This document shows positions 2,244-62,530 of a DNA stretch of 64,000 nt, piece by piece. The number at the start of each line of letters is the position of its first letter. The first letter of the stretch is position 1. A program made the position numbers and the translations under genes. The notes under the pieces were generated by a model. The model made no database searches. It worked only from the letters and a program-made list of their open reading frames with translations, and was not told the DNA's origin. The stretch comes from Pyrinomonadaceae bacterium (GTDB lineage: Bacteria > Acidobacteriota > Blastocatellia > Pyrinomonadales > Pyrinomonadaceae): NCBI GenBank assembly GCA_036277115.1, contig DASUNM010000023.1, forward strand, positions 806,001 through 870,000, in the 5' to 3' direction.

Positions 2244-3449
2244 CTAACCTTGCTTCGGCGCATCCTTCACGCAACGGAAGCCAAGATGATTGCTGGCCGA
2301 GCGCACTTCGCCTTTGCCCCGCGTGCCCACCATATAGCGAGTGCAATACTCGTCTGTGCAAAGGAACGAACCGCCGCGGTGCACCCGCTTAGGCACATTT
2401 GGTTCGCTGGGGTCATGGCTGCTGGATGGGCCCTGAGGGTTGCGCGCGACACCGCCTTGTTGGGCCAGAGTTGAATAGTAGTCGGCGCGATACCAATCGC
2501 TGGTCCACTCCCATACGTTCCCGCCCACATCAAATAATCCGTAACCGTTGGCCTGAAACCGCGCGACCGGGGCAATGCCCTTAAAACCATCCTCGCCTTT
2601 GTCGGCGCCCTTCACCGGAAACTTGCCCTGATAAATGTTTGCCGGCCATTTGCCATTTGGCTTTAAGTCATCTCCCCAGGCATAGGTCTTTCCGCTGAGT
2701 CCACCGCGTGCGGCAAACTCAAATTCAGCTTCTGTGGGCAAACGCTTCCCGGCCCACTTCGCGTAGGCCTCTGCATCTTCATAAGCGATGTGTACGACCG
2801 GAGATTTCTCGCGGCCTTTCAGATCGCTTTGTGGCCCATCCGGATGGCGCCAGTTAGCACCCGCGACATAGCTCCACCACTGGTAATGATCATGGAGTGA
2901 AACAACCGGCCGCGGCGCAGGCGAAAAGACAACCGAGCCGGCCACCAGGTTTTCCTCGGGCGCATCGGGAAACTCTTCGCGGGTGGGCTTGCGCTCCGCC
3001 ACGGTCACGTAGCCAGTCGCTTTCGTGAACCGTTCAAACTCTTCATTGGTAACTTCGGTTTCGTCCATGAAAAACGCATCGACCGAAACACGATGAATCG
3101 GCCGCGCGTCATTCATCGGCTCGTCACCCCCGCAGTACATTTCCGTCGCGACCGGGTCAAGCGAGCCCATCGAGAACTCACCGCCGGGGATGTAGACCAT
3201 TCCTTCCGGTGGCGCGCTGGGCGCCGAAACCGGATTCGTGATCGTTGCGGCAAAATTGGGTTGGGCGTTGGGAGTGACTGCACGGCTCTTTGTGGCTGAG
3301 CTCACACCAACCTTCTGTGCCGGCGAGCGGAGCAGCAGCCATGCCAGTAAGGCAACGACTGCCAGTGCGATGGCAAGGAGGAGCACCGTTCGACCGTTCA
3401 TCGCGCGCTTATTTCCTTGAAATCTTATCGCCCTTGTCATGGTTGTCAT
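2244..3449 (-). CDS. Formylglycine-generating enzyme (sulfatase-activating), membrane-anchored
   Basis: FGE oxidises a cysteine in type I sulfatases to C-alpha-formylglycine, the catalytic residue. The 401-residue protein has an N-terminal membrane anchor (about residues 20-40), a low-complexity linker, then the FGE-sulfatase fold starting at YIPGGEFSMGS. The C-terminal segment RGGSFLCTDEYCTRYMVGTR places two cysteines (C364 and C369) exactly as in the copper-binding catalytic pair of true FGEs, followed by the family signature SASNHLGFRC. Many FGE-fold proteins lack these cysteines, so this one is probably active. It leads a minus-strand operon, has a palindrome-bearing promoter at 3552-3596, and an arylsulfatase with the substrate motif lies one transcription unit upstream (4387-6840). 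Confidence 0.92.
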   Translation of the reverse strand: MTTMTRAIRFQGNKRAMNGRTVLLLAIALAVVALLAWLLLRSPAQKVGVSSATKSRAVTPNAQPNFAATITNPVSAPSAPPEGMVYIPGGEFSMGSLDPVATEMYCGGDEPMNDARPIHRVSVDAFFMDETEVTNEEFERFTKATGYVTVAERKPTREEFPDAPEENLVAGSVVFSPAPRPVVSLHDHYQWWSYVAGANWRHPDGPQSDLKGREKSPVVHIAYEDAEAYAKWAGKRLPTEAEFEFAARGGLSGKTYAWGDDLKPNGKWPANIYQGKFPVKGADKGEDGFKGIAPVARFQANGYGLFDVGGNVWEWTSDWYRADYYSTLAQQGGVARNPQGPSSSHDPSEPNVPKRVHRGGSFLCTDEYCTRYMVGTRGKGEVRSASNHLGFRCVKDAPKQG

Positions 3450-3551: not shown

Positions 3552-3596
3552 AGTGTATCGGCGGCGGAATTGGACAGTAACTGTCAGTTTTGACAG
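3552..3596 (-). promoter_or_regulatory. Palindrome-type promoter of the FGE operon
   Basis: On the minus strand the 16-bp palindrome CTGTCAAAACTGACAG (3581-3596) is followed, after exactly 21 bases, by GATACACT (3552-3559), a plausible -10 box. The same arrangement recurs at 4206-4250 and 10820-10864 with identical spacing and at 12331-12376 with one extra base. No good -35 sits 17 bases before the -10, so the palindrome probably binds an activator next to a weak -35. Confidence 0.65.
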
Positions 3597-3640
3597 GCGC
3601 GAGAGGGAAGATAGCTGAAAGGCCTCGGTGCGTTTCTTGG

Positions 3641-3709
3641 TGAATCTTTGTGCCTCTATGGTGAGTGTTCCCCCGGTAAACCCACCACTGAGACACAGAG
3701 AATCACAAA
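3641..3709. repeat. Inverted 7-mer-type repeat
   Basis: The left arm (3641-3663, containing TTTGTGCCTCTATGGTG) and the right arm (3682-3709, containing CACAGAGAATCACAAA) are imperfect reverse complements made of short CA/GT words. The site lies between the FGE promoter and the end of the next minus-strand gene and belongs to the family of 7-base-period repeats found throughout this window. No ORF is visible here. A role as terminator or mRNA-stabilising hairpin is possible but unproven. Confidence 0.6.
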
Positions 3710-3756
3710 GGTGGCACAGAGGAAATCGAACCGGTTATTACTGACCGATGATAACT

Positions 3757-4149
3757 TCAGAGGCTGGATAATTTTCGGCGCGTAAACCAGATATTCGAAG
3801 CGCACCATATGCCGAGACCAAGATGTAAAAGGATCGCCGGCCAGAGCAATGCACTGCGCTGCTCCAAACGAGTGCCGGCATACACGAGCACCAGCGCGGC
3901 GGCAAAGTTATAAAACAGCATCGCCTGGACCACTCCACTGGCGGGGCTCCCCCGTTCGCCGTTTCTTGCTTGCCAACAGGCAATGGCAAGCGAAAGAAGC
4001 GCCGCACCGGCAATCCGCGCTGCGACCAAACCGGGATCTGTCTCCAGCGGCGCGCCGAGTAACACCGACGTCGCGAGGCCAGGCATGAGAAGCAAGGTGA
4101 GGCCGGCACCCGCTTCTACCACTGCCGCGATCATGAGTAGAAGTTTCAT
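3757..4149 (-). CDS. Small four-helix membrane protein
   Basis: This 130-residue protein is almost entirely hydrophobic, with four predicted helices (about residues 2-25, 40-60, 70-92 and 98-118) and a short basic tail. It resembles generic DoxX-like or SdpI-like small membrane proteins in size, but I see no diagnostic motif and leave the function open. It has its own promoter of the regulon type at 4206-4250, and the arylsulfatase terminator separates it from the sulfatase. A longer alternative frame on the same strand here is only a shadow. Confidence 0.7.
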   Translation of the reverse strand: MKLLLMIAAVVEAGAGLTLLLMPGLATSVLLGAPLETDPGLVAARIAGAALLSLAIACWQARNGERGSPASGVVQAMLFYNFAAALVLVYAGTRLEQRSALLWPAILLHLGLGIWCASNIWFTRRKLSSL

Positions 4150-4205
4150 GGAGATCTAAGTGGGATCGACTCGCCGTTCCCCCTCCTCGCGTAAACCATG
4201 ACCGA

Positions 4206-4250
4206 AGAGTATCTGCGAGTGAATTGGCCGGTAACTGTCAGTTGTGACAG
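4206..4250 (-). promoter_or_regulatory. Palindrome-type promoter of the small membrane protein
   Basis: On the minus strand CTGTCACAACTGACAG (4235-4250) is followed after 21 bases by GATACTCT (4206-4213). Palindrome, spacing and -10-like box match the FGE and 10780 promoters. The start codon at 4149 lies about 57 bases downstream. Confidence 0.65.
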
Positions 4251-4308
4251 GGGCTGGTCACAATTAGACGTAAACATTCAACGAGCTACGGAGCAGCTGG
4301 TCCCGCCC

Positions 4309-4349
4309 AAAAAAAGAATCGGCTGTAACCATCAAGGGTCACAGCCGAT
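4309..4349 (-). terminator. Rho-independent terminator of the arylsulfatase gene
   Basis: On the minus strand a 13-bp stem (ATCGGCTGTGACC, 4337-4349, pairing with 4318-4330 apart from one G-T) with a 6-base loop is followed after TC by seven T residues. It lies 38 bases beyond the arylsulfatase stop codon. Confidence 0.85.
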
Positions 4350-4386
4350 CCAAAGCGCACGGACGACCAGTCACGCACACTTTTAA

Positions 4387-6840
4387 CTAATTGGCCCCGG
4401 CCATTCGGATGGCAGTTTGACGACGAGCTTTCTCCGCTTCCGCAGCATCGGCCGCCGCCGGTTTCAACTCGACGGTTACCTTGTGGATCTTGCCGGTGAA
4501 CTTGAAGGGTATCTCGTAGGCCTTCGTAACCGCGGTACCTTCATCCAGGCCGACGTCGGTCCCTTCGTCCGCCGAAAACATATTCGCCTGGGTATTGTCG
4601 ATGCGTCCCGAGGCAACCTCTTGCCCATTGACAAAGATCTTGCCTACACCACCTTTACCACGCCCGCCGCCGTCATACGCAAACTCGAAACGGATCGTTA
4701 CCTTTCCGGCAGGCAAGGCCTGGGTCGAAGAAACCGTGTACTCATGCAGCCCGAGGTAGTTATAGGTATATGACGGCTTGCCGTCCTTTACGTACAGACT
4801 CCACCCGCCAAAGCGCCCGGCCTGGGCCAGTATCGCTCCGTTGACGGCAGCGCCGCCGGGGCTCTCAACCTCAGCCGTGATGTTGTGCGACATATTCTTA
4901 GCGTTGATAAAGACGTTCTCCGACATTCCGTGCATGCCTTCGTACACGGTCAGACTTTGGCGGCCGTTCATTAGATCCGGCCGTCCTGCGACATTGGGGA
5001 TCAGTCGTTCAATTCCCCGATCGTCTATGGGGAGCACGCGGTTCTTCTCGGCTTCTACCAGGAAGGCCGCCTGCATCTCCTTCAATTTCGCCGGGTTTTG
5101 CTTGGCAAGATCATTCGCCAAGCTGAAATCATTTCGCATGTCATAAAGTTCCCAGATATCGTCTTTCATGGGACGGCGAGGAGTACCTTCCCACGGAGCC
5201 CGATGGATGGTTGCTGCATACCAACCGTCCTTATAAATGGCCCGGTTCCCAAATATCTCAAAGTACTGCGTCTTGTGCCGGTCGGGCGACTTAGCATTAT
5301 CAAAGCTGTACATCATGCTTACGCCGTCCATCGGGATCTGCACGGTGCCATTGACGCTCTTCGGTTCGGGCAGTCTTGCTGCTTCGAGGATCGTCGGGGC
5401 GACATCGATAACGTGGTGCCACTGCGTGCGGACCTCATTCTTTGCCTTGATGCCCTTGGGCCAGTGAACGATCATGCCGTTTCGCGTGCCACCGTAGTTC
5501 GACGCAACCTGTTTAGTCCATTGGAACGGGGTGTTACCTGCTACGGCCCAACCAGCGGCCATGTGCGGGTAGGTGGTGGGATCGCCCCAAGTATCGATAT
5601 TCTTGAGCATGTCGGGCACGGTCTCAGGTACTCCATTAAAATAAGTCATTTCGTTATAGAGGCCGTTCATGCCGCCCTCGGCACTCGTCCCGTTGTCACC
5701 GAGGATGTAAAAGATAAGCGTGTTATCGAGCTGACCTGTAGCGCCGATCGCGTCAACCAGACGACCGACCTCGCTGTCTATATGCTCACCAAAGGCCGCA
5801 AAGACCTCCATCTGGCGTGCGAACAATTTCTTTTCGTCAGCTGAAAGCGTGTCCCAATCCTTGATAGCCGGGGGTTTTGGAGCAAGCTTTGTTCCTGCCG
5901 GCACCACGCCGAGCTTGATCTGGCGTGCGAGCGTTTCCTCGCGCAGTTTGTCCCAACCGCCGTCAAACTTACCCTTGTACTTTTCGATCCATTCCTTCGG
6001 TACATGGTGCGGTGCGTGGGTGGCACCCGGAGCGTAGTACATATAAAACGGCTTGTCGGGTGTCAGCGATTTTATGCCCTGCATCCACTCGATCGCTTTA
6101 TTGGTCATGTCGGTTGAGAAGTGGTAATCAGTTTCCTTCGAGATCTCTACCGGTGTCATTCCATCGTAAATGAATGGCGCCCATTGATTCGTCTCACCAC
6201 CCATGAAGCCGTAAAACTTGTCAAAGCCGGCTCGGGTGGGCCAGCGGTCCGTCGGGCCGGAGGGGCTGACTTCCCAAGCCGCGGTTTCGTGGTTTTTTCC
6301 AAATTGCGCCGTGCTGTAGCCATTAAGCCTGACCATCTCTGCCAGGTAAGCCACGTCATCCGGCCGGCTGCCGGTGTTTCCCGGAAACGCGGTCGCGGTT
6401 TCGGCGATCGCACCGAAGTTGACCACATGATGGTTTCGTCCCGACATCAGCGCCGCACGAGTCGGAGAGCAAAGTGCCGTGGTATGAAACTGGTTATATT
6501 TAAGGCCGGTTGCCGCCAGCCGCGTCGCGGTCGGCATGCGGACCGGTCCCCCAAAAGCGTCTGACATTCCGAATCCCATGTCGTCGATCAGTACGATGAG
6601 CACATTCGGCGCACCGTCAGGCGCCTTAACCTGAAACCTTGCCGGCGTCTGAGCTTCGCGTACGTCCTGCGTCGTCAGCTTTGGGATCATGGGGTGCGGA
6701 ATCGGAAGTATGGTGCGGTCAGTCGGGTAAAGGACCTTCGCTGGTTGAGGCTGCTGCGCCGAGACAGGAACGACTGCCAACGGAGCTGCCAGAAGCGCGA
6801 CTGCAAGCAGTTGAGTTACGAAAGCTCTAAATCTATCCAT
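4387..6840 (-). CDS. Secreted type I arylsulfatase
   Basis: This enzyme hydrolyses sulfate esters in the periplasm or outside the cell. The 817-residue protein has a signal peptide ending near VSAQQ (residue 30), the metal-binding start LIVLIDDMGFGMSDA (D86, D87) and the sulfatase signature LCSPTRAALMSGR, whose C124 in the CxPxR context is the formylglycine site. The second signature GTRNGMIVHWPKGIK, the YYAPGATHAPHH metal/substrate loop and LGDNGTSAEGG follow. Residues from about 620 form an extra C-terminal beta-domain, typical of the large AtsA-like enzymes of about 780-820 residues. The start has a strong GAGGAG before it. The FGE at 2244-3449 is its likely maturase, and the two share the palindromic operator type. 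Confidence 0.93.
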   Translation of the reverse strand: MDRFRAFVTQLLAVALLAAPLAVVPVSAQQPQPAKVLYPTDRTILPIPHPMIPKLTTQDVREAQTPARFQVKAPDGAPNVLIVLIDDMGFGMSDAFGGPVRMPTATRLAATGLKYNQFHTTALCSPTRAALMSGRNHHVVNFGAIAETATAFPGNTGSRPDDVAYLAEMVRLNGYSTAQFGKNHETAAWEVSPSGPTDRWPTRAGFDKFYGFMGGETNQWAPFIYDGMTPVEISKETDYHFSTDMTNKAIEWMQGIKSLTPDKPFYMYYAPGATHAPHHVPKEWIEKYKGKFDGGWDKLREETLARQIKLGVVPAGTKLAPKPPAIKDWDTLSADEKKLFARQMEVFAAFGEHIDSEVGRLVDAIGATGQLDNTLIFYILGDNGTSAEGGMNGLYNEMTYFNGVPETVPDMLKNIDTWGDPTTYPHMAAGWAVAGNTPFQWTKQVASNYGGTRNGMIVHWPKGIKAKNEVRTQWHHVIDVAPTILEAARLPEPKSVNGTVQIPMDGVSMMYSFDNAKSPDRHKTQYFEIFGNRAIYKDGWYAATIHRAPWEGTPRRPMKDDIWELYDMRNDFSLANDLAKQNPAKLKEMQAAFLVEAEKNRVLPIDDRGIERLIPNVAGRPDLMNGRQSLTVYEGMHGMSENVFINAKNMSHNITAEVESPGGAAVNGAILAQAGRFGGWSLYVKDGKPSYTYNYLGLHEYTVSSTQALPAGKVTIRFEFAYDGGGRGKGGVGKIFVNGQEVASGRIDNTQANMFSADEGTDVGLDEGTAVTKAYEIPFKFTGKIHKVTVELKPAAADAAEAEKARRQTAIRMAGAN

Positions 6841-6933
6841 GATTTTTCTCCTCGTGATTCCGCGATCGCATTCGCGGCACTGGTCCGATGATTAAGCGTT
6901 TTACATTCTTGGCGGAAAACCACCTCTGGTGAA

Positions 6934-6949
6934 CTGTCAAAACTGACAG
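6934..6949 (-). promoter_or_regulatory. Operator palindrome upstream of the arylsulfatase
   Basis: CTGTCAAAACTGACAG lies 94 bases upstream of the arylsulfatase start. It is a perfect 6-4-6 inverted repeat identical to the core at 3581-3596. The downstream -10-like box is less obvious than at the other sites (an AATGTAAA stretch at about the right distance on the minus strand). Confidence 0.6.
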
Positions 6950-6983
6950 CTCGCTTGTTCTCAAACGGCGTCTCGTTAACCGA

Positions 6984-7946
6984 CTAGTCACGAACTAACT
7001 TCCAGGTTGAATCCGGATTGTATTCAGTCATCGAGCCGGCAATCTCCGCGGTTCGCGCGCCGAGATCCTTTTCATAGACGCGGCCCTCCTGATTCACGAC
7101 AAAAGTCATCACGCCCGAATTACCCCACATGGCCGGATAAGCAACGAGGGCAAACCCGCCAATCATGTTGCCGTTGATGATGTAGTTGTAGGCGCCACCG
7201 GGCGCGCTCGGTCCCTGGCGCGTAAGAATCTTGAAGTGGTAACCGTGAAACGGAGCGGCAGTTTGCGTTCCCGATCCTTTTTTGCGGGTGTAGCCTTCGT
7301 TCGCCGCCAGCGCTACGAGCGGACCCAGAGGACTCGGTTCTTCATCACCAACAACTTCCCAGTACAGGCCATCCTTTTTGCCGGCCGAGCTGAGTAGCTT
7401 CACTGCGTACTCCGACACCTGGTCCCCATCCCAATCGCCATTGCCGAAATAATCGTCCTGGGCCAAGACATACGCGCGGCAGACAAGCGAGGCATCGATT
7501 TCATTGCCACCGATGCGGCGGTTGTGAACTTCCTCCACGCCGTTCTCAATGTCGAAACGCCACTGATTGCCGGCCTTGATGATGGGTATGGGAAACGGCC
7601 ACTTGTCATTGCCGACTATCAGCGTGACTTTCTGATCACTTTCCTTTTCGAGCTTCGTGCCTTCAGAGATAAAGGCGGACAAGTCTGAAAGATCATTAGC
7701 GTCTGAGACCGGGTCACCGGAGAGGAGCTCCTTGATTCGTGGGCCAAAGATCCGCGCCAGCGAGGCCCGGTCCCTGGCCTGGGAAGCAGCCACCAGCGCT
7801 CGAGTAGCTTCTTCGGGACTCGAGAAGAGTTGCTGTTGAGCCTGCGCCGATGCGACGACCGCCGCGCTGAGGGTTAAGACAATCAATGCAACCAGGTGCA
7901 AGCTGCGCCCGGCGAAATAATGTTTGTTACTGCTGCGGGTTTTCAT
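6984..7946 (-). CDS. DUF2950 secreted protein
   Basis: The 320-residue protein has a signal peptide (hydrophobic core LVALIVLTLSAAVVASAQA) followed by the DUF2950 domain over nearly its whole length. Family landmarks are RWRFDIENGVEEVHNRRIGGNE, a central YGDGDWDGD-like acidic segment, YHFKILTRQGP and the C-terminal FVVNQEGRVYEKDLG...TAEIAGSMTEYNPD. The function of DUF2950 is not known; it is often encoded next to DUF3300, as here, 26 bases downstream. Both probably belong to the transcription unit that starts at the promoter near 10820. Confidence 0.88.
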   Translation of the reverse strand: MKTRSSNKHYFAGRSLHLVALIVLTLSAAVVASAQAQQQLFSSPEEATRALVAASQARDRASLARIFGPRIKELLSGDPVSDANDLSDLSAFISEGTKLEKESDQKVTLIVGNDKWPFPIPIIKAGNQWRFDIENGVEEVHNRRIGGNEIDASLVCRAYVLAQDDYFGNGDWDGDQVSEYAVKLLSSAGKKDGLYWEVVGDEEPSPLGPLVALAANEGYTRKKGSGTQTAAPFHGYHFKILTRQGPSAPGGAYNYIINGNMIGGFALVAYPAMWGNSGVMTFVVNQEGRVYEKDLGARTAEIAGSMTEYNPDSTWKLVRD

Positions 7947-7972
7947 GATTAGTTCTCTTTCGTACTGATAAA

Positions 7973-9181
7973 TTAATTTCGCCGCCTCCCACCACCACTG
8001 AACGAACGAGTCTGTTGCGCGCTGGCGCGGCTGGCTTGTCCACGTTGACTCGCGGCTCTGGTCTGCCCGCCGCTGCGGAACCCACCAAAGGCCGAGGATC
8101 GCGGCTGCTGCGTCGCGGTTCGATTTGTAGTTCCTGTATTCGTATGCCCGCGCATTGAGTTGACGCGCGCGTCGTTGGCATTGATGTTCTTGCTCGAGAC
8201 GCTATTGCGGTTCACGTTGTTCGTGTTGACGTTGTTGCGGTTCACGTTGTTCACGTTCACATTGTTCACATTCACGTTGTTCCGATTGACGTTGTTCACG
8301 TTCACGTTGTTGTAGTTAACGTTGCGGTGCACGTTGTTGTAGTGGTTGATGTTGTTGTAATTGACATTGTGATGGACCACATTTCGGTTGACGTGGATGG
8401 TCGAGTAACTGCGATTGACGTACACGCTGTTGACGTGAACGTAACGTGAGCTGGTACTGATCCAGCCAACTCCGTGCCAACCGTGGTAGAAGACTGTGTG
8501 TGTATGCCAGTTGCAGTCGTTGTTAAGCCAGGCACCGATCGCCAGTCCAACGCCAAACGAAATTGCCGCAGTAGCAATCACCGTCCCGGTGGAGGGACCT
8601 GACGGCTGCTGCTGAACGTAGACGACCTGCGGGTTGTAAGTCGGTACATAGATTAGCTGGGGATTAGCCGGCACAATCTTGATTACTTCCTGCTCCACAA
8701 TCACAGTTTGCTGTGGCGTAGTGGCCAGAAAACCCGCCTTCTTCGCTAGTGACCGAAGTCGCTGGACAGACTTCAACACGTCCGCCGACTGATTGACGTA
8801 AGCCTGGCCCAAAGCCGTCGTCCAATCGAGCTTGTCGCTCATCATGTAGACCGCTTGCGGGTAGTGCGCGATCGACCTGACCGAGACATCCCATGCCTGG
8901 TTATCGACACCCGCGGTGTTGTTATTGTTGCCGCGCAACCAGCGCGCGGCCTGTTCGACTTGATCGACGAAGGTCGAAGCGGGAAACATCTGCGCCAACA
9001 ATGGATCCGGGTAAAGCGCAATCGGCGCCAGCAGGTTGTCCATCTGCTCGGCGGAGAGCCCTTCAGGAAGGATGGCAGCCGGTATGTTTCCCGCGGTGCT
9101 CCGTCGAGTGGCAGCTTGCGTGGCCACCGTCAAATTGGCGATCAGGCACGAGAGCAAGCAAAACATGATTGTCTTTTTCAT
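7973..9181 (-). CDS. DUF3300 secreted protein with Asn/Val repeat tail
   Basis: After a signal peptide the protein carries the DUF3300 domain (about residues 35-200), recognised by LSAEQMDNLLAPIALYPDPLLAQMFPASTF and VYVPTYNPQVVYVQ. A glycine-rich membrane-like stretch and HTHTVFYHGWHGVGW follow. Residues of about 270-345 are a low-complexity run of NVN, NNV and RNN units encoded by tandem DNA repeats (8211-8350), and the tail is rich in Ser, Arg and Gly. DUF3300 proteins are envelope proteins of unknown function. The ATG at 9181 with GGGAGA upstream is preferred over the TTG two codons earlier. It pairs with DUF2950 downstream. Confidence 0.88.
   Translation of the reverse strand: MKKTIMFCLLSCLIANLTVATQAATRRSTAGNIPAAILPEGLSAEQMDNLLAPIALYPDPLLAQMFPASTFVDQVEQAARWLRGNNNNTAGVDNQAWDVSVRSIAHYPQAVYMMSDKLDWTTALGQAYVNQSADVLKSVQRLRSLAKKAGFLATTPQQTVIVEQEVIKIVPANPQLIYVPTYNPQVVYVQQQPSGPSTGTVIATAAISFGVGLAIGAWLNNDCNWHTHTVFYHGWHGVGWISTSSRYVHVNSVYVNRSYSTIHVNRNVVHHNVNYNNINHYNNVHRNVNYNNVNVNNVNRNNVNVNNVNVNNVNRNNVNTNNVNRNSVSSKNINANDARVNSMRGHTNTGTTNRTATQQPRSSAFGGFRSGGQTRAASQRGQASRASAQQTRSFSGGGRRRN
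8211..8350. repeat. Tandem short repeats inside the DUF3300 gene
   Basis: On the plus strand the units GTTCACGTTGTT and GTTGCGGTTCAC recur with a 6- or 12-base period. They encode the Asn-Val runs of the DUF3300 protein. All changes keep the frame, so this is a protein-level low-complexity repeat that can vary by slippage without destroying the gene. Confidence 0.85.
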
Positions 9182-9249
9182 ACTCAAAGAATCTCCCTCT
9201 GGTCTGTGGCAAAAATACTGTCCCGGCCCAGTCGCGCTGCCCCTACGGA

Positions 9250-9846
9250 CTAATTCCTGCGCACGTTTCTCAGTTTGATCGGATCCATTCCGAGATACTC
9301 AATCTCGAGCTTGCCGTTCTCAATCTTCACCTGAGAGGCGTAGAGCAGAATGCCCTCGCCGACTTCTTTCCCTTTCTTATTCCTCACGAGATCGAGCACT
9401 ACAATTCCGAGTTTGTAATCCGTGGACCTGCTTCCGCCGTAGGCTTCTAAAAAGCCAATCGGACGATCCGAGACAGCGATGATTTGGCGGCCGGTCGGAG
9501 TTTTACGGGAGCGGATCAGTTTCAGGTCAAAAAACCCGACGCGCCGGCTCAGCGATGCGTGGCCGATGTCCTTCGCCTTTTCGAGATCCTTCACCAGTGC
9601 GTCCTGCCCGCCCTCGACGAGAACACCCGCCAGTCGCTTGGTCGTGGCATCGCTCGTGTAACGGTTAATCCAGATATCTACCCAAGCCGTCGCGGCGGCA
9701 GCTCGGGGTAGACTGGCCACCGCGCTGAAATGTTCAGTCTTGGGCTTTGGTTTGGGCTTGGGTTTTGATTGCTCGTTCGTCTGTGAAAATGCGGCGACAC
9801 TGACGCAGCAGATTGCGAACAGCAAACCGATTAATCTTTTCGTCAT
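9250..9846 (-). CDS. Secreted protein of unknown function
   Basis: The ATG at 9846 follows AAAGGGA by nine bases and opens with a signal peptide (MTKRLIGLLFAICCVSVAAFSQ). A Lys-Pro-rich linker (KPKPKPKPKTEH) then leads into a globular domain of about 150 residues with no motif I recognise; it is likely alpha/beta, with ATAWVDIWINRYTSDATTKRLAG at its start. It sits 16 bases after the MetA-like outer-membrane gene and 68 bases before the DUF3300 start, in the same transcription unit. The (KP)n linker is typical of proteins that span part of the periplasm or peptidoglycan. Confidence 0.7.
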   Translation of the reverse strand: MTKRLIGLLFAICCVSVAAFSQTNEQSKPKPKPKPKTEHFSAVASLPRAAAATAWVDIWINRYTSDATTKRLAGVLVEGGQDALVKDLEKAKDIGHASLSRRVGFFDLKLIRSRKTPTGRQIIAVSDRPIGFLEAYGGSRSTDYKLGIVVLDLVRNKKGKEVGEGILLYASQVKIENGKLEIEYLGMDPIKLRNVRRN

Positions 9847-9862
9847 ATGCTTTTGTCCCTTT

Positions 9863-10780
9863 CTAAAAACTCTTGCCAACTCCAACCACTACGGTGACAC
9901 CCTGCGTGCGATTGCGGGCGCCAAACTCGGGAAGAACTCGCACCAGGAAGTTGAGCTTTTTGGTCGGCAGGATTACTCCCAGCTCCGGGCCGATCGCGAA
10001 CACGCGATCCTTGTTGCCGGCCGTGAGCGCGGGAACAGCCGTTCCTGAATCATTCGTCAGTTGGAATTCGGCATATCCAACGACGCCAAACTGCACGAGT
10101 TGTTTCCCCTGGTTCTGAACAAAGATTTTGCCGACGCCGGCTTCAAGCGTCATGTTGTTGCCAACTTTCAGATCTTCGTGACGCTTCTTCTGGTGAAACT
10201 CCCAGTTGGTGCTGAAAGAAAATTGCGTGAGCTTGGATTTATCCAGATAAGCGGTGGTAGCAAACGTTATCTGATGGCCCCAGTAGTCCGTGGTGGTCGT
10301 GTCATTCCCGGTCTCGTCAAATTTCCCCGTGGGCGCCACGAATCCATAGGCCAATTTGACGTCGGCCTTCTTCAGTTTCCACCCGAGATTGATCGGCTCA
10401 ACGTAAAGGTCGGCTATGCCCGTAGGACTGGCCCCCGCACCGAGACGAGGAAGGGACACCGGCGTATTTACAATCGGCACGGCGACAGCCATGCCATAGT
10501 TAGCACCAAGAAATTTCGCTTTGGTCGTGTAGGCGAGCAGATTCACATCAACCAGCAGGTCGAGATCAAAAACGAGTGGTGACGTGTTCCCATTCTGATC
10601 TTTAAATTTCGTTGATGGATACCATGTGAATAGATTCGCGTAGGTGATTCCTTCGGGCGTCTGCATGCCCGAGTTGAGTCCAGCGGTTCCAGGAATATAT
10701 TGGCCACGCTCCTGGGCCATGGCCGGCAGCGAAATGATGACCAGCAATAAAAGACAACCCAAGGCGGCTCGACATTTCAT
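9863..10780 (-). CDS. MetA-pathway-type outer-membrane protein
   Basis: The 305-residue protein has a signal peptide ending at AMAQ and a predicted beta-barrel with alternating amphipathic strands and a C-terminal aromatic residue (VVVGVGKSF), as in outer-membrane proteins. The motifs YIPGTAGLNSGMQTPEGITYANLF, GIADLYVEPINLGW and KLAYGFVAPTGKFDETGNDTTTTDYWGHQ are those of the Phenol_MetA_deg family, implicated by association in uptake of hydrophobic compounds. The substrate here is unknown. It is the first gene after the regulon-type promoter at 10820-10864 and has a good GAGGAGAAG ribosome-binding site. Confidence 0.85.
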   Translation of the reverse strand: MKCRAALGCLLLLVIISLPAMAQERGQYIPGTAGLNSGMQTPEGITYANLFTWYPSTKFKDQNGNTSPLVFDLDLLVDVNLLAYTTKAKFLGANYGMAVAVPIVNTPVSLPRLGAGASPTGIADLYVEPINLGWKLKKADVKLAYGFVAPTGKFDETGNDTTTTDYWGHQITFATTAYLDKSKLTQFSFSTNWEFHQKKRHEDLKVGNNMTLEAGVGKIFVQNQGKQLVQFGVVGYAEFQLTNDSGTAVPALTAGNKDRVFAIGPELGVILPTKKLNFLVRVLPEFGARNRTQGVTVVVGVGKSF

Positions 10781-10819
10781 TCGACTTCTCCTCTAAGGGG
10801 TTCCCATCTAATGGCTTGA

Positions 10820-10864
10820 AGTGTATCGGCGTGCCGACGGGCGGGTAACTGTCAGTTTTAACAG
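10820..10864 (-). promoter_or_regulatory. Palindrome-type promoter of the MetA-like/DUF3300/DUF2950 operon
   Basis: On the minus strand CTGTTAAAACTGACAG (10849-10864), with one mismatch in the left half-site, is followed after 21 bases by GATACACT (10820-10827). This is the same architecture and spacing as at 3552 and 4206. Confidence 0.65.
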
Positions 10865-10918
10865 GCGCTCAACGGAATTTCTGAAGGGGAATGTCTGGGG
10901 AATCTGCCCGGCACGAAA

Positions 10919-11614
10919 TCAGAAGTAGATACTCAAGGCCGCGCCGAAGGCTTTTATTCGACTCGGCTGCGAGCGTGAGTCGTTCTGACGGGTGAAGAAG
11001 AGATCCAGCACCACATGGCGTTTGGGATCGGCCAGCTTGATAAGGGGAAAGCCCTTCTTGAAAGGGACCTGGAGTCCAACCGTGAGACGATTTCGATTCC
11101 ACGTGTCAAACCGGGTGTCGTAGTAGACCTCCGCCGAGGAGTAAGGCGTCAGCTGACGCCCAAGAACTTCAAACTCTCTCTCAACCGTGACGCGATTACG
11201 ATACCGAGCGGAAAACTGCCCATTGACCCAACGGAAATCTTCCCGATTTCTGTCAGTCAACAACACGTCCAGAGGTAGAGGATGTCGCAGCGTTTGTTCC
11301 AGGACGATGCGGTGCTCTTTGAAAGGGTCGCCTTCGCTTAAAGCAAAGCCGTACCGATATCCTCCGCGCAGCATGAATTTCCGGTTGACTGTGTAATCAA
11401 GGTGAATGCCGACCTGCCCTTCAAGATTATCTCTGGTCTCTTCAGCCTTAGTGACAGTGCCCAATAGGAACAGCTTGATCTTTGGACGGAGTGGGATAAA
11501 GACATCGACTTCTGGCCAGAATTGGAATTCTGCGGCGTCTTGCGCGTAGGTCGCCGTGACCGGCAATACCAAGAACATTACCAGGCAAAGAATCTGCACT
11601 ATCCTCGGCTTCAT
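10919..11614 (-). CDS. DUF2490 outer-membrane-like protein
   Basis: The 231-residue protein has a signal peptide (cleaved after TYAQ) and then a beta-barrel-like domain opening with FQFWPEVDVFIPLRPKIKLFLLGTV, the start typical of DUF2490. Family-like features include FMLRGGYRYGF, RHPLPLDVLLTDRNREDFRWVNG and a final strand ending in YF. DUF2490 proteins are presumed outer-membrane barrels with unknown ligands. It lies 128 bases downstream of the DUF4136 gene on the same strand; that gap shows no operator copy, so it is probably read from the 12331-12376 promoter. Confidence 0.8.
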   Translation of the reverse strand: MKPRIVQILCLVMFLVLPVTATYAQDAAEFQFWPEVDVFIPLRPKIKLFLLGTVTKAEETRDNLEGQVGIHLDYTVNRKFMLRGGYRYGFALSEGDPFKEHRIVLEQTLRHPLPLDVLLTDRNREDFRWVNGQFSARYRNRVTVEREFEVLGRQLTPYSSAEVYYDTRFDTWNRNRLTVGLQVPFKKGFPLIKLADPKRHVVLDLFFTRQNDSRSQPSRIKAFGAALSIYF

Positions 11615-11742
11615 CTCATTGCCTCTGGTGACTAACCCGGACTTTGGTAACAGCTGATCCTTCGGAAACAGGGCCGCACCGGTTTATCCGGGTTCATTTG
11701 TGGGCGCGCAAGGGTTCCCCAATTGAGCTTTTCCTCAAGAGG

Positions 11743-12273
11743 TCATTTTTTGACGGGATACTTACTGAACATTTTTTCGACGGACTTTTTCACTACGCTC
11801 TCAACACTCTTCGCATCTGCGGCCGCGTCCCCGGTCGGGCCATGACTCAGCGTTTTCTTGGCGATCGCACGCCAGACGTATCTCTCCGTCTTATGATCTT
11901 TAAGATCCACCACCAGCGTGCCTTTATTCACATTCATGGGCGGGGGTGGGCGATAAACTGCGCCCGTAGCGTAAGTGACCCGGCTGAAGGAGATGCCGCT
12001 CAGTTGCAGATCAAGATCCACCGCGGCCGCATACATGACCTGCAGATCGCCTCCGGCCTCAACCTTGGTGAGTCCTCTCGCCGCCATTTGCTGATCGACG
12101 GCGTCAATGATCATCTGATCAATGAGCGGATTTCGAGCCGGCATTCCCTTTACCCAGAAATAAGTTTTGTACTGTGAGAAGTCGACTGCTTTGTCGAGCT
12201 GGACCTTAACGCTCTGGCCCCAGACCGGATAAGCGAACAGAAGAAACACCAAACAGATTATTGCTCTTCTCAT
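11743..12273 (-). CDS. DUF4136 secreted protein
   Basis: This 176-residue protein has a signal peptide (cleavage near VWGQS) and a DUF4136 domain: DFSQYKTYFWVKG, then DAVDQQMAARGLTKVEAGGDLQVMYAA, then a C-terminal segment VNKGTLVVDLKDHKTERYVWRAIAKKTL. The family consists of periplasmic or lipoprotein-like small domains of unknown role. No lipobox cysteine is present here. It has a strong GAGAGGG ribosome-binding site and heads a unit under a palindrome-type promoter. An unusual C-terminal run of lysines (KSVEKMFSKYPVKK) ends the protein. Confidence 0.85.
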   Translation of the reverse strand: MRRAIICLVFLLFAYPVWGQSVKVQLDKAVDFSQYKTYFWVKGMPARNPLIDQMIIDAVDQQMAARGLTKVEAGGDLQVMYAAAVDLDLQLSGISFSRVTYATGAVYRPPPPMNVNKGTLVVDLKDHKTERYVWRAIAKKTLSHGPTGDAAADAKSVESVVKKSVEKMFSKYPVKK

Positions 12274-12330
12274 TTTTCCCTCTCGATCTGAAGCTGCAAT
12301 GCCGCTGCTGCTAACTCGTCTTCATCCTGG

Positions 12331-12376
12331 AGTGTATTGCCGCTAACGTCGGGGTCGCTACTGTTAACTTTGACAG
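12331..12376 (-). promoter_or_regulatory. Palindrome-type promoter of DUF4136/DUF2490
   Basis: On the minus strand CTGTCAAAGTTAACAG (12361-12376) is followed after 22 bases by AATACACT (12331-12338). It is one base longer in the spacer than the other members and has one half-site mismatch. Confidence 0.6.
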
Positions 12377-12400
12377 GTTAGAAACTGCTCGGGGGCCGAA

Positions 12401-12632
12401 CCAGCTGCGAAGCAGCGCTGATAGTTAAGCCCAAGGCGAGTCTGCGAGCCTTGGGTCAACGACCCCCGAGGTGGGCAAGCCCCGAAGGGGCGACAGCGAT
12501 CATTGTTAATCGGCGGGCCCTGGTCATGAACCTTCTGTCGCCGCTTCGCGGCTCGTCGACTAATGAATCAAAACCCAAGGCTCGCCAAGCCTCGCCTTGG
12601 GCTTAACTACGTCCGCTGCTTCGCAGCTGGTT
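12401..12632. repeat. Large REP-like cruciform with nested hairpins
   Basis: The outer arms are reverse complements: CCAGCTGCGAAGCAGC with AAGCCCAAGGCGAGTC at 12401-12455, against CTCGCCTTGGGCTTAA and CTGCTTCGCAGCTGG at 12580-12632. Inside are smaller hairpins (GCCCCGAAGGGGC and CCGCTTCGCGG). The 508-base gap 12274-12782 holds nothing else besides the two flanking palindromic promoters. Such multi-hairpin elements are common REP-like repeats in GC-rich environmental bacteria. Nothing coding is visible in it. Confidence 0.8.
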
Positions 12633-12679
12633 GACGTCACCCCAGGGTCCAGTATTCAGACTTTGTTGGGCATCCTTAC

Positions 12680-12725
12680 CTGTATGTTTTGACAGTATTC
12701 GTCCTCATCGCAATTCCCATAGCAT
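12680..12725 (+). promoter_or_regulatory. Palindrome-type promoter of the PP2C gene
   Basis: On the plus strand CTGTATGTTTTGACAG (12680-12695), with two left-half mismatches, is followed after 22 bases by CATAGCAT (12718-12725), a -10-like box. It points at the PP2C gene start at 12783. This ties the phosphatase to the same operator family as the minus-strand cluster. Confidence 0.5.
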
Positions 12726-12782: not shown

Positions 12783-13721
12783 ATGAATCCAAATAGAGAC
12801 ATTGAGGATGACGACGACACAGTCGACACGTTAGCGCCCGGCGCAATGCCCCATCTTGCATTGCCGCTTGATCCGGCCTCGGCAAAGGTAGAGGTGGACG
12901 TCGCCGGCATGACGCATACGGGACATGTCCGAACAAACAATGAGGATCACTATCTCTGCGTGCGGATCGAGCGATCGCTGAAGACGATGATGACGAACTT
13001 AATCGGCGGATCGCTTCCGGAACGTTTTGATGAAGTCGCCTACGGCATGCTGGTGGCGGACGGAATGGGCGGGTATGCGGCCGGCGAAGTTGCCAGCAGC
13101 ATGGCGCTGGTCAAACTCATCGAGCTGGCGACCGAGACGCCCGATTGGGTGATGCGAATGCAGAAACGCGAGAACGCCGACCGCGTCATGCAGCGCATGA
13201 CTGAGCGCTTCCGCATAATCGACTCAGCGATGCGCGTCCAGGCCGAGGGCGATCCATCACTTCTCGGAATGGGTACTACCTTGACAGTGGTGGCGAGCCT
13301 GGGAGCGGAGCTATTTGTCGGACATCTCGGCGATTCGCGCGCATACCTGTTCCGAAACAAACGACTCCACCAACTGACCCGCGACAACACGCTGGCGCAG
13401 GAATTGATCGATGCGGGCATAGCGCGAGCCGAAGACACCGCCACGCAGGCCATGCGTCACGTCCTTACCGCAGCCCTCGCTACCGGCGACCAGGCCGATC
13501 CGCAAGTGCAGCGGTTTCATCTTTCACACGGCGATCAAATTCTTTTATGTACAGACGGTCTTACTGGAATGGTGCGGGACGAAACGATAGCTAAGATTCT
13601 GAACGATGCGGACTCATCCAACGCGGCGTGCCAAAGCTTGATTGACCAGGCGCTCGCGGCCGGTGGCTCTGACAACATCACTGTGGTTTTGGCACGGTAC
13701 CGGTTTCCCGCTTCAAGGTAA
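12783..13721 (+). CDS. PP2C-type serine/threonine protein phosphatase
   Basis: This enzyme removes phosphate from Ser/Thr residues on proteins using two metal ions. All PP2C motifs are present in order: GHVRTNNEDHY (residues 42-52), VADGMGGYAAGEVAS with the metal-binding Asp, GHLGDSRAYLFR, LTRDNTLAQELIDAG, LLCTDGLTGMV and SDNITVVLARY. It has an unusually acidic N-terminus (EDDDDTVD) and an insert after the first motif (ERSLKTMMTNLIGGSLPERFDE). There is no membrane segment, so it is cytoplasmic. No kinase gene is next to it. Its promoter carries a degenerate copy of the regulon palindrome. The start has only a weak ribosome-binding site. Confidence 0.93.
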   Translation: MNPNRDIEDDDDTVDTLAPGAMPHLALPLDPASAKVEVDVAGMTHTGHVRTNNEDHYLCVRIERSLKTMMTNLIGGSLPERFDEVAYGMLVADGMGGYAAGEVASSMALVKLIELATETPDWVMRMQKRENADRVMQRMTERFRIIDSAMRVQAEGDPSLLGMGTTLTVVASLGAELFVGHLGDSRAYLFRNKRLHQLTRDNTLAQELIDAGIARAEDTATQAMRHVLTAALATGDQADPQVQRFHLSHGDQILLCTDGLTGMVRDETIAKILNDADSSNAACQSLIDQALAAGGSDNITVVLARYRFPASR

Positions 13722-40295: not shown

Positions 40296-40304
40296 AATTC
40301 AACC
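40296..40304. other. Left target-site duplication, 9 bp
   Basis: AATTCAACC immediately precedes the left terminal repeat of the transposon. The identical nine bases follow the right terminal repeat at 44213-44221. Confidence 0.95.
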
Positions 40305-40326
40305 GGTAGTGTCCTAATTTGAAATC
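40305..40326. repeat. Left terminal inverted repeat
   Basis: This 22-bp end is the exact reverse complement of 44191-44212 and starts with GGTAGTG as IS1-type ends do. Confidence 0.95.
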
Positions 40327-40327
40327 C

Positions 40328-40531
40328 TTACCGGAATAGTGGCCCAATGCGAATTGCAAGCACTCCCAGCGAGATCATCACGATTATTGCCCCGATACTT
40401 GAAATGACACACCCAGCCTTTATTCCTTGCACATCTTCCCGGTTCTTAGGACGGTTACTTATCCACCCTACCAACTGGCCGAAGCCGACGATAACGACAC
40501 CGATCACCAAGAACAGGATTGGATACCACAT
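40328..40531 (-). CDS. Small two-helix membrane protein (transposon cargo)
   Basis: The 67-residue protein starts with ATG 40531 preceded by GAGGAC. It has two hydrophobic helices (MWYPILFLVIGVVIVGFGQLVGWI and VISSIGAIIVMISLGVLAI) joined by a charged loop SNRPKNREDVQ. The stop lies next to the left terminal repeat. Function is unknown; small two-helix proteins often are holin-like or toxin-like, but no evidence supports that here. Confidence 0.65.
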   Translation of the reverse strand: MWYPILFLVIGVVIVGFGQLVGWISNRPKNREDVQGIKAGCVISSIGAIIVMISLGVLAIRIGPLFR

Positions 40532-40614: not shown

Positions 40615-41454
40615 ATGGCAAACACGTTACCGAAAGACAAACAGATTCAAGTGACAGCGGCGCTAGCCGAAGGTAATTCGATCCGGTCTATTGAGCGAAT
40701 GACTGGGATTCACCGGGACACGATCATGCGCTTAGGCGTCAAGGTCGGTCAAGGTTGTGCGCGTCTGTTAGACGCGAAGATGCGCGGCCTCGATTGCCAG
40801 CGCCTTGAGCTGGATGAGGTGTGGGGCTACATCGGTAAGAAAATGCGCCACTGGCAAGTTGGCGACGATCCGACCTTTGGCGATGTTTGGACATACTGCG
40901 CGATTGATGCGGATACCAAGCTAGTCCCTGCCTATCGTGTCGCCAGTGCGCGTGACCATTACCAGACCACGGAGTTTATTGCCGACTTAGCATCGCGTCT
41001 TAACAACCGCGTTCAGATTTCAACCGATGCGATGAACGCTTACGAAGAGGCCATCGAAACAGTGTTCGGAATGGATGTTGATTACGGTCAGATCGTAAAA
41101 ACCTATCAGTCGGAGGACGGTAGAAAAGAGTACAACCCCGAGCGTCGTTACAGCCAACCGCGCATCGCTTCATCTAAGAAAACCGCGATGGCTGGCAATC
41201 CTGAGTGGGCACTAATCAGCACGTCCTACGTTGAACGGCTGAATGCCTCAACTCGTTTGCACATGAAACGGTTGGCGCGTCTGACTCATGCGTTCTCTAA
41301 GAAGTTTGAGAATTTCGAAGCTGCGGTTGCGTTGAATTTCGCCGCTCACAATTTCGTCAAAACGCATCGCACGTTGAAAATGACACCCGCGATGATGGCC
41401 GGAGTGACTAACGACTTTTGGAGCTACGGGGATCTATTCGAGGCGGCATCGTGA
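40615..41454 (+). CDS. IS1-family DDE transposase
   Basis: The 279-residue protein has an N-terminal helix-turn-helix (IQVTAALAEGNSIRSIERMTGIHRDTIMRL) and the DDE domain with LELDEVWGYIGKK (D67), QISTDAMNAYEEA (D138) and STSYVERLNAS (E207), all in the InsB-like context of IS1. It is a single full-length frame, so no programmed frameshift is needed, unlike classic IS1. It catalyses insertion and generates the 9-bp duplication seen. The next gene starts at GTG 41451 within its stop (GTGA). Confidence 0.93.
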   Translation: MANTLPKDKQIQVTAALAEGNSIRSIERMTGIHRDTIMRLGVKVGQGCARLLDAKMRGLDCQRLELDEVWGYIGKKMRHWQVGDDPTFGDVWTYCAIDADTKLVPAYRVASARDHYQTTEFIADLASRLNNRVQISTDAMNAYEEAIETVFGMDVDYGQIVKTYQSEDGRKEYNPERRYSQPRIASSKKTAMAGNPEWALISTSYVERLNASTRLHMKRLARLTHAFSKKFENFEAAVALNFAAHNFVKTHRTLKMTPAMMAGVTNDFWSYGDLFEAAS

Positions 41455-42152: not shown

Positions 42153-42464
42153 TTAACGGTGCTGGCTCTTCTTCTCATTCCACTTGCCCTCACGCTTGCG
42201 GCATCTTAAATCGGCCACGTCTGCCAATTCCGCCGGATAACCGAAACAGCCGACCCCCAGTAGCACCTCTGGAAAATCGGCTGTTCCGTTGAACTCGCAA
42301 ACGCGAGCAACCCCAATTCTATTCGCGGCTGGTGCTATACGCCGACGTACCTTGGAATTACAGGCACATACTTCTATTATCCAGCCGTTGTCCCGTTTAT
42401 AGCACCGAAAGCGGCCCTCTAGAGCCGTGAAAACGTGACATGCCACCCAAGCCGTGTCCGCCAC
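42153..42464 (-). CDS. Small Cys-rich protein (cargo, doubtful)
   Basis: This 103-residue frame (MADTAWVACHVFTALEGRFRCYKRDNGWIIEVCACNSKVRRR...) contains seven cysteines and a plausible beta-strand alternation, but it has no clear ribosome-binding site. Its first 25 bases overlap the divergent zinc-finger gene. It fills an otherwise empty stretch of 300 bases on both strands, so it may be real. I recognise no family. Confidence 0.4.
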   Translation of the reverse strand: MADTAWVACHVFTALEGRFRCYKRDNGWIIEVCACNSKVRRRIAPAANRIGVARVCEFNGTADFPEVLLGVGCFGYPAELADVADLRCRKREGKWNEKKSQHR

Positions 42465-43150
42465 GTCTAAAAAGACTCATTAAACGCGTGAATGCGGGTT
42501 CAGCCGACGAAGCCCACGCGTTAAGGCAAATCCTGCGCGCTTTCCACGCTAGACGCCAGAACAAGGGCGCGGACACGATTGCAATACAGAGCCTCAGTGA
42601 AATCACGATCAATCTCACTGAGTACAAGGTGACCGTAGTTAGCGAACTGGCCAAAGCTTTAGACGAGATCGACTCATGGCGGGTGGTTGACTCAATCCGT
42701 GAGTGCGTCCACCCGACTTGCAGCCAGATATTTTGGGCTGGCAGGGCCGACAAGGAAGCTTGTGACAAACATGCGCAACAATGGCGCAAGACGAGGCAAA
42801 GGCGAAAGGAAAGGGAGAATCAGGCGGAGGCCCATGCCAGACGCGAGGAAGCTCAGCTAAAGAGGACGATAACCCGGCTCAGCCCGACAGCCCATGCTGT
42901 GATAAGCGCGATTATGGCGAATCAGAAGCGGGTCTTTCTAAACATTGATGATTCAGCCGCTTCTTACCTTTACGGGACGGTACTGCACGTGCCGAGTCGG
43001 TACATCGTTCGCCAAACACTCACGATGCTAGTTAGGCGCGGATACTTAGACTACTTTGAGGATGTTAACCATAACGAGGATCGCTACTCTCCACGACAGA
43101 AGTTAATTGACCTTTGGTCAAGCATGCAACGCAAGCCCACAGACGAGTAA
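42440..43150 (+). CDS. Zinc-finger/winged-helix DNA-binding protein (cargo)
   Basis: The 236-residue protein has a Cys-X4-Cys...Cys-X2-His cluster, RECVHPTCSQIFWAGRADKEACDKHAQQWRKTRQRRKER (about residues 90-130), which resembles the CGNR zinc finger except that the usual CGNR is CDKHAQQ. A basic helix then leads to a C-terminal winged-helix-like part (about 155-220: SAIMANQKRVFLNIDDSAASYLYGTVLHVPSRYIVRQTLTMLVRRGYLDYFE). The N-terminal 80 residues have predicted helices. It probably regulates cargo or transposase genes. Confidence 0.7.
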   Translation: MPPKPCPPRLKRLIKRVNAGSADEAHALRQILRAFHARRQNKGADTIAIQSLSEITINLTEYKVTVVSELAKALDEIDSWRVVDSIRECVHPTCSQIFWAGRADKEACDKHAQQWRKTRQRRKERENQAEAHARREEAQLKRTITRLSPTAHAVISAIMANQKRVFLNIDDSAASYLYGTVLHVPSRYIVRQTLTMLVRRGYLDYFEDVNHNEDRYSPRQKLIDLWSSMQRKPTDE

Positions 43151-44135: not shown

Positions 44136-44190
44136 AGGGTGGGTTACAATGGCTAGTCGGACAACTGGCGTGCCACAAAACCGTAGTACA

Positions 44191-44212
44191 GATTTCAAAT
44201 TAGGACACTACC
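44191..44212. repeat. Right terminal inverted repeat
   Basis: This is the exact reverse complement of 40305-40326. Confidence 0.95.
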
Positions 44213-44221
44213 AATTCAACC
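44213..44221. other. Right target-site duplication, 9 bp
   Basis: AATTCAACC is identical to 40296-40304 and is followed directly by the solo terminal repeat at 44222. Confidence 0.95.
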
Positions 44222-52436: not shown

Positions 52437-52970
52437 TTACATGAATTGTAAGCGCGAACTGATGAACACGATGACCGTCGCGACGAGAATGATTGAGCCG
52501 AATAACAACGTCAGAAGAAAAGCCACGACCCCGCCCACAAATAGCCAGTCGGTGACGCGACCCTGCCGCAAATCCGTACCCGAAACCGTCGCGCGGGCGC
52601 GCAGCAAATTCAGATTGCGCATGTTCGGCTTCCACCAAATGGCGAAGAGGTCGCCGGCCAGGGGCACAAGACCGCCAATGAAATAGATCGCAATGTTAAG
52701 CGCCATCCGCAGTAGCGTGACCTTAGGCACTCGATAACGGACCGCGGAAACCAAAAGATAAAGCGCGATGATCGAAGTCGCCACATCACCAATGCCCGGG
52801 ACCAGATCGAGGATCGCATTCAAGCCAAAGCGCCAACCCAGTACGGGCACACGAAACTGGTTGTCCATGAACTGGCTGAAGACTTCCAGCTCACGTTCGA
52901 CTTGAATCGTTGTCGGACGAAGAACCTGACGATGCGAAGACACCGGTTCCAATTGCGCTTGAGTAGTCAT
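52437..52970 (-). CDS. DUF4112 membrane protein
   Basis: The ATG at 52970 directly touches the inner edge of a 7-mer repeat, so earlier starts are repeat-derived. The protein (177 residues) contains the DUF4112 domain: MDNQFRVPVLGWRFGLNAILDLVPGIGDVATSIIALYLLVSAVRY and LRMALNIAIYFIGGLVPLAGDLFAIWWKPNMRNLNLLRAR. About four helices are predicted, including a final one (GVVAFLLTLLFGSIILVATVIVFI). Function is unknown. Confidence 0.88.
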   Translation of the reverse strand: MTTQAQLEPVSSHRQVLRPTTIQVERELEVFSQFMDNQFRVPVLGWRFGLNAILDLVPGIGDVATSIIALYLLVSAVRYRVPKVTLLRMALNIAIYFIGGLVPLAGDLFAIWWKPNMRNLNLLRARATVSGTDLRQGRVTDWLFVGGVVAFLLTLLFGSIILVATVIVFISSRLQFM

Positions 52971-53079
52971 TTGTACTTTGTGCTTCGTACTTTGTGCTTT
53001 GACGTGAGATTCAGGAGGCCTTAAATCCAGGGGAACTTGCAAGGGAGAACTAAGAACAAAGTACAAAGCCCAAAGTACG
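52971..53079. repeat. Inverted 7-mer repeat, TTTGTAC type
   Basis: The left arm (52971-53003) is TTTGTAC, TTTGTGC, TTCGTAC, TTTGTGC in exact 7-base register. The right arm (53049-53079) carries AACAAAGTACAAAGCCCAAA. The arms enclose about 45 bases and fill the space between the DUF4112 start and the M1-like stop. Confidence 0.85.
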
Positions 53080-59050: not shown

Positions 59051-59103
59051 GAAACGTCCTCGCTCAAAGCACAAAGTACCAAGTACAAAGTACTAAGCAC
59101 AAT
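59009..59103. repeat. Inverted 7-mer repeat, TACAAAG type, across two gene starts
   Basis: The left arm (59009-59039: TACTTGG, TACTTTG, AACTTTG) lies in the first codons of ftcD. The right arm (59065-59103: CACAAAG, TACCAAG, TACAAAG, TACTAAG, CACAATG) ends in the ATG of the divergent spoIIM gene. Both genes therefore share repeat-derived 5' ends. Confidence 0.85.
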
Positions 59104-62488: not shown

Positions 62489-62530
62489 TTGATTGGATGG
62501 TCACTTACTCAAAGGGTTCAGGTGATAGAG

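Follow-up and report, generated by a model that had tools for sequence, protein, structure and literature searches.

The locus and its palindromic sites

The 64-kb window analysed here (C23:806001-870000 of a 4.85-Mb Pyrinomonadaceae genome, phylum Acidobacteriota) carries near its left end an arylsulfatase gene among several genes for probable envelope proteins, and a recurrent palindrome, CTGTCA-N4-TGACAG, stands upstream of these genes. This report concerns the palindrome, the genes behind it and the two-component regulator that probably reads it. The genes are:

2244-3449, minus strand: formylglycine-generating enzyme-like (FGE-sulfatase) protein, first in its operon, Pfam PF03781
3757-4149, minus strand: small membrane protein without a Pfam match
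4387-6840, minus strand: arylsulfatase, Pfam PF00884
6984-7946, minus strand: DUF2950 protein, operon member, Pfam PF11453
7973-9187, minus strand: DUF3300 protein, operon member, Pfam PF11737
9863-10780, minus strand: MetA-like outer-membrane protein, Pfam PF13557, first in an operon that continues with 9250-9885, DUF3300 and DUF2950
11743-12273, minus strand: DUF4136 lipoprotein-like protein, Pfam PF13590, followed by a DUF2490 protein (10919-11614, PF10677)
12783-13721, plus strand: PP2C-type protein phosphatase, divergent, Pfam PF00481, a possible target

A scan of the window places six palindromes at 3581, 4235, 6934, 10849, 12361 and 12680, with 0, 0, 0, 1, 1 and 2 mismatches to CTGTCA-N4-TGACAG, respectively. 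These starts are exactly those given in the original prediction made from the window, and all six are intergenic, none falling within a predicted gene:

3581-3596, minus strand: predicted operator CTGTCAAAACTGACAG, 5' of the FGE operon
4235-4250, minus strand: predicted operator CTGTCACAACTGACAG, 5' of the membrane protein of 130 amino acids
6934-6949, minus strand: predicted operator CTGTCAGTTTTGACAG, 5' of the arylsulfatase gene, without a -10-like box at the usual spacing
10849-10864, minus strand: predicted operator CTGTTAAAACTGACAG, 5' of the MetA-like/DUF3300/DUF2950 operon
12361-12376, minus strand: predicted operator CTGTCAAAGTTAACAG, 5' of DUF4136/DUF2490
12680-12695, plus strand: weak predicted operator CTGTATGTTTTGACAG, 5' of the PP2C gene

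At up to two mismatches the palindrome occurs seven times in the window, against 1.68 expected, and no shuffled sequence reached seven. The seventh match, at 57100, was rejected as a regulon member and attributed to chance, since it lies within an open reading frame (ORF) and its conserved TNACAG half is broken (CTGTCAGAAAAGACAG). The region between the sites at 12361 and 12680 also contains a 45-base inverted repeat (arms 12399-12443 and 12588-12632, 89% complementary, 144 bases apart), which may be a small mobile or repetitive extragenic palindromic (REP)-like element splitting a formerly shared intergenic region.

Promoter geometry

Five of the palindromes are followed at an almost constant distance by a -10-like box:

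3552-3559, minus strand: -10-like box GATACACT, 21 bases from palindrome 3581
4206-4213, minus strand: -10-like box GATACTCT, 21 bases from palindrome 4235
10820-10827, minus strand: -10-like box GATACACT, 21 bases from palindrome 10849
12331-12338, minus strand: -10-like box AATACACT, 22 bases from palindrome 12361
12718-12725, plus strand: -10-like box CATAGCAT, 22 bases from palindrome 12680

The spacing claimed earlier, 21 bases at three sites and 22 at two, was thus recovered, and GATAC[A/T]CT does lie exactly 21 bases 3' of the palindrome at 3581, 4235 and 10849; the boxes at 22 bases, however, are not GATAC. Occurrence at the coding-region rate or at unrelated spacing, named beforehand as the pattern that would speak against a regulon, was not seen, the sites being intergenic and their spacing fixed.

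The geometry was extended to a set comprising this region, genome G145 and loci fetched by protein homology. Here 25 of 28 palindromes lie outside ORFs, and the remaining three fall within ORF calls that possibly start too early. Among the 23 oriented sites the base directly 3' of the palindrome is always T, and TANNNT begins 22-23 bases 3' of the palindrome in 16. In 89 unique palindromes the positions that the pattern leaves open are constrained: each has A or T at position 8, G does not occur at position 5 nor C at position 12, and the latter two, degenerate positions vary dyad-symmetrically. If TANNNT is set as -12 to -7, the palindrome would cover about -51 to -36 with its centre near -43, directly adjoined by a poor -35 (TTAC..). 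For lux boxes the usual centre is -42.5 (PMC4471428). The site thus appears to be a lux-box-like operator, and its centre, some 43 bases before the inferred start, would make class II activation the likeliest mode of action.

Whether the regulator activates or represses cannot be read from the geometry by itself, and the palindrome directly adjoins the -35 neighbourhood, as would suit the NarL-type response regulator described below if it were a repressor whose dephosphorylation releases expression. A poor -35, a TANNNT-like -10 at nearly fixed distance and a centre near the usual lux-box activation position (PMC4471428) make repression unlikely. It has also to be considered whether an extracytoplasmic function (ECF) sigma factor recognises the motif as an extended promoter, TGACAGTTAC serving as its -35 and GATAC as its -10, in which case a separate activator would be unneeded. 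Both the TGACAGTTAC block and the -10 are indeed kept at fixed spacing. Both half-sites, outer and inner, are nevertheless retained at the window sites, the variation at positions 5 and 12 is dyad-symmetric, a match in Pandoraea (see below) is a lux box, and occurrence of the motif tracks a GerE response regulator, although no search for a co-occurring sigma factor was made. A sigma-factor promoter is, on these grounds, very improbable.

A candidate regulator beside the window

A dense two-component cluster is encoded a short way left of the window:

C23:793400-793810, minus strand: receiver-only protein
C23:794041-794685, minus strand: NarL-type response regulator, REC plus GerE/LuxR helix-turn-helix
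C23:794700-795863, minus strand: cytoplasmic PAS/HisKA_3 kinase, adjoining the NarL-type regulator
C23:796647-797345, minus strand: FixJ-like response regulator
in the same cluster, minus strand: second receiver-only protein
in the same cluster, minus strand: kinase with an ABC_sub_bind-type sensor

In a scan of the whole genome the palindromes cluster in one stretch that takes in this neighbourhood. Exact copies number three, all within the window; allowing one mismatch raises the number to 14, and seven of these fall in C23:793938-818376 (Poisson P ~1.5e-14 for seven in 24.8 kb). Combined with a spaced -10 (CTGT-N8-ACAG-N20..24-ATANNNT), the palindrome gives seven matches in the genome, all within the 25 kb of C23:793909-818725, and none with the reversed control. 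Two of these composite sites lie left of the window: one at C23:805278 (TATACACT at 21 bases), 5' of a gene that encodes a signal peptide and precedes that of an Omp85 protein, and one at C23:793938 (AATAGGAT at 21 bases), 5' of the receiver-only response regulator. One-mismatch sites on C27 and C30 lack a spaced -10 and were taken as chance. Clustering of genome-wide hits had been proposed as a check on the idea of one dedicated regulator, and the confinement of every composite match to a single stretch supports that idea. The regulator had further been placed outside the visible cluster; this is literally true, but the candidate is close by, within the same 25-kb island and 11.3 kb to the left of the window's first base.

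This candidate, the NarL-type response regulator, has the NarL/FixJ family architecture (PF00072, 1.4e-24; PF00196, 4.7e-15; L016:8041-9099). Its receiver keeps the residues of phosphorylation in an alignment of 16 proteins (DDH, the Asp of VVLDI and a later Lys), and the adjoining gene encodes HisKA_3 (1.5e-09) and HATPase_c domains, a kinase pairing that recurs in relatives. The whole genome yielded only four GerE proteins, and the 25-kb stretch encodes two of these. Regulators of genomes carrying the motif retain the recognition helix RTVA[FY]HKY, while nearby paralogs have RTAESHKY. Because of this conserved helix, together with the genome-wide co-occurrence and conserved synteny described below, the NarL-type regulator is very probably the protein reading the palindrome.

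Distribution across genomes

A set of 162 genomes of the same class was compared, several of them fragmented. The composite CTGTNANNNNTNACAGTTAN{18,21}TANNNT is present in 12 and absent from 150, and the control matched in no genome. The NarL-type regulator (E<=1e-50) occurs in 14/162 genomes and in 10 of the 12 with the motif (Fisher p = 2.4e-11), so that composite promoters are almost wholly restricted to regulator-bearing genomes. Within genus g8 alone, four of five regulator-positive genomes carry the composite and none of 36 regulator-negative ones does (p = 5e-5). G075 and G114 have regulator and palindromes without the strict composite, and a very strict composite (ATACNCT) missed most relatives.

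Synteny is conserved as well. Many genomes from this family encode a homolog of the receiver-only protein, frequently with a full NarL-type regulator ~0.9 kb away, and the gap between the two genes holds a palindrome in the present genome, G104, G096, G114 and G075, other genera included. Near this module, in the same genomes and in G143-G146, homologs of the arylsulfatase, DUF4136, MetA-like, DUF3300, Omp85 and PP2C proteins recur. In a gp1 acidobacterial genome (L171) a homologous regulator shares the RTVA[FY]HKY helix, and a palindrome follows immediately 3' of its gene.

The other GerE protein of the 25-kb stretch, the FixJ-like regulator with its periplasmic-sensor kinase, might instead be the binder; it has the same type of DNA-binding domain and is likewise one of only four such proteins found in the genome. 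The six other genomes that encode a homolog of it at E<=1e-50 (G001, G040, G041, G046, G047 and G050) all lack a composite promoter, however, and the motif loci of relatives carry the NarL-type regulator, a FixJ-like match (27% identity) being present in only one. The FixJ-like protein was rejected as binder by this genome distribution, and its being the regulator is decidedly improbable.

Beyond the class, a scan of 84,980 species returned four non-self matches, three in Acidobacteria and one in Pandoraea pneumonica (L049:7900-7944, NZ_CABPSK010000004.1), where the whole composite is matched 5' of a luxI-like gene and beside a luxR-like gene. In a phylum-wide sample, which held few genomes of the positive genera, only the present genome and G098 matched. 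The palindrome without promoter context matched 12 of 60 relatives, mostly at single sites, and was uninformative.

Several observations weigh against the NarL-type regulator as reader of all these sites. Within the window, the arylsulfatase site at 6934 has no recognisable -10 at the usual spacing, and the site at 12680, with its two mismatches, is weak. The co-occurrence counts are phylogenetically non-independent. G134 (62% complete) and G147 (~990 contigs) carry a composite promoter without a regulator at the threshold, G053 and G154 encode regulator homologs of 50-54% identity but lack a strict composite, and several genomes have no exact palindrome 5' of the receiver-only gene.

Predicted target genes

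The Pfam families most often found among 56 downstream proteins across genomes are DUF4136 (8), MetA-like (5), DUF3300 (3), sulfatase (2), receiver (2), DUF202 (2) and SBF transporter (2), with DUF2254, FGE, bestrophin-like, OEP and DUF2490 as single cases. A hydrophobic N-terminal segment is present in 44/56 targets and in 35/68 background ORFs, a rough measure that is only indicative, the background including regulon genes. Judged by these families, the targets across genomes are predicted envelope genes, i.e. DUF4136 lipoproteins, MetA-like channels, DUF3300 and arylsulfatase. The name 'sulfatase/secreted-protein regulon' given earlier is right, as the arylsulfatase site is kept in five genomes, but narrow, the commonest targets being DUF4136 lipoproteins, MetA-like outer-membrane proteins and DUF3300.

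The five regulator-bearing genomes with a site 5' of sulfatase homologs are G000, G096, G098 (three exact sites), G099 and G143, whereas none of 10 sulfatase loci from regulator-less genomes has an upstream site. Several sulfatase loci in regulator-bearing genomes also lack one, and this control appears supportive, not decisive. At the G098 locus (L181, G098:C12) three exact palindromes and one near-palindrome are stacked ~200-480 bases 5' of the sulfatase match, possibly a multi-site promoter. In G143 (L180/L199/L201, G143:C61:11649-16702) tandem sulfatase homologs with 72-75% identity to the window's protein have an exact palindrome 5' of the first. The DUF3300 gene of the window contains, at 8166-8369, a 15-base repeat in eleven steps that encodes an asparagine/valine-rich repeat (NNVNVNNVNRNNVN).

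The target families also bear on a third reading of the motif. In gamma- and beta-proteobacteria the classical LexA consensus reads CTGT-N8-ACAG, and all sites formally fit it, so the genes could be a repressed DNA-damage (SOS) regulon. The downstream families, however, are envelope or secreted ones (DUF4136, MetA-like, DUF3300, sulfatase), with no SOS repair family among the 25 commonest; LexA is common across bacteria, yet 150 of the 162 genomes compared lack the motif, and the AT-rich centre and position 5' of the -35 better suit an activator. A LexA box is hardly credible here.

Proposed mechanism and related systems

We are quite confident that a two-component transcription activator has the palindrome CTGT(C/A)A-N4-TGACAG as its operator, the protein bound there being most likely the NarL-type regulator at C23:794041-794685, as judged from sequence comparison. 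In this scheme the PAS/HisKA_3 kinase would phosphorylate the regulator, which would then dimerise and bind the operator, whose AT-rich centre would lie ~43 bases before the inferred start, by the poor -35 and ~22-24 bases before the TANNNT -10. LuxR-type helix-turn-helix proteins act as class II activators from such a position, and the bound regulator may likewise recruit RNA polymerase at the weak -35. The genes switched on would be those for outer-membrane proteins, lipoproteins, the arylsulfatase, the maturation-like FGE protein and the receiver-only protein at C23:793400-793810, the product of which could drain phosphate as a sink and so exert negative feedback.

The circuit would be a NarL/FixJ regulon, a known kind of system. 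It resembles the NarL/FixJ (GerE-type) response regulators, of which the nearest solved structure is NarL (PDB 1a04), in its receiver, GerE helix-turn-helix and adjacent HisKA_3 kinase, whereas it differs from them in operator sequence, targets and recognition helix; NarL heptamer sites are unrelated in sequence to the CTGTCA palindrome. TodT/StyR, of the same response regulator family, may recognise ATAAAC-N4-GTTTAT (PMC5874301), an inverted repeat of the same 6-4-6 layout; here, in contrast, the half-site is CTGTCA, the targets are envelope genes instead of aromatic catabolism, and the kinase type differs. With the lux box of LuxR the site has in common the inverted repeat CT-N12-AG centred near -42.5 (PMC4471428), and a lux box is also reported 5' of Pandoraea luxI (PMC6691176). 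The acidobacterial regulator, however, has a phospho-receiver in place of the autoinducer-binding domain and is therefore not a quorum-sensing LuxR; on this evidence, the acidobacterial lux-box-like site would be read by a phospho-receiver protein.

In root nodule bacteria DUF3300 lies upstream of DUF2950, and the two are described as co-localised, secreted and jointly induced, without a hint of function (PMC4653623). The same two secreted families form part of an operon behind the palindrome here, while the passage describing them in that paper names no regulator or motif. A search of openly accessible papers found no description of the motif, the regulon or an acidobacterial sulfatase regulon. 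To our knowledge, few regulons have been worked out in Acidobacteria. The present analysis offers a putative regulator, operator and promoter layout for envelope families of unknown function (DUF2950, DUF3300, DUF4136 and DUF2490), and with a regulator and its defined site in view, the signal that turns DUF3300/DUF2950 on can be sought. The composite motif, with no control match in 162 genomes, is specific enough to list the regulon in other acidobacterial genomes.

The 25-kb island and other features

At the thresholds used, neither the regulator nor the motif nor a close sulfatase homolog occurs in six congeners of the window's genome, which fits island acquisition or repeated loss. Tentatively, and with considerable doubt, an envelope-remodelling regulon consisting of kinase, response regulator, autoregulated receiver-only feedback protein and ~8 operons with the operator might travel between Acidobacteria as a compact 25-kb island, dispersing through the genome in some hosts, with the receiver-only protein as a built-in phosphate sink setting the response.

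Some 25-35 kb left of the window, three long proteins in a row (L015:5073-15093; C23:771073-781093) share a HELTHVAQ/HELAHVAQ motif and are possibly cargo of a contractile injection-like system. Further into the window, 34-base inverted repeats 3.9 kb apart (40298-40331 and 44186-44219) flank a transposase-like ORF (40615-41454) and an ORF at 42440-43150, and the element between 40298 and 44219 looks like a transposon. Related AAAGTACAAAGCAC-type repeats occur in both orientations in three stretches, at 52964-53078, 59054-59107 and 62526-62636.

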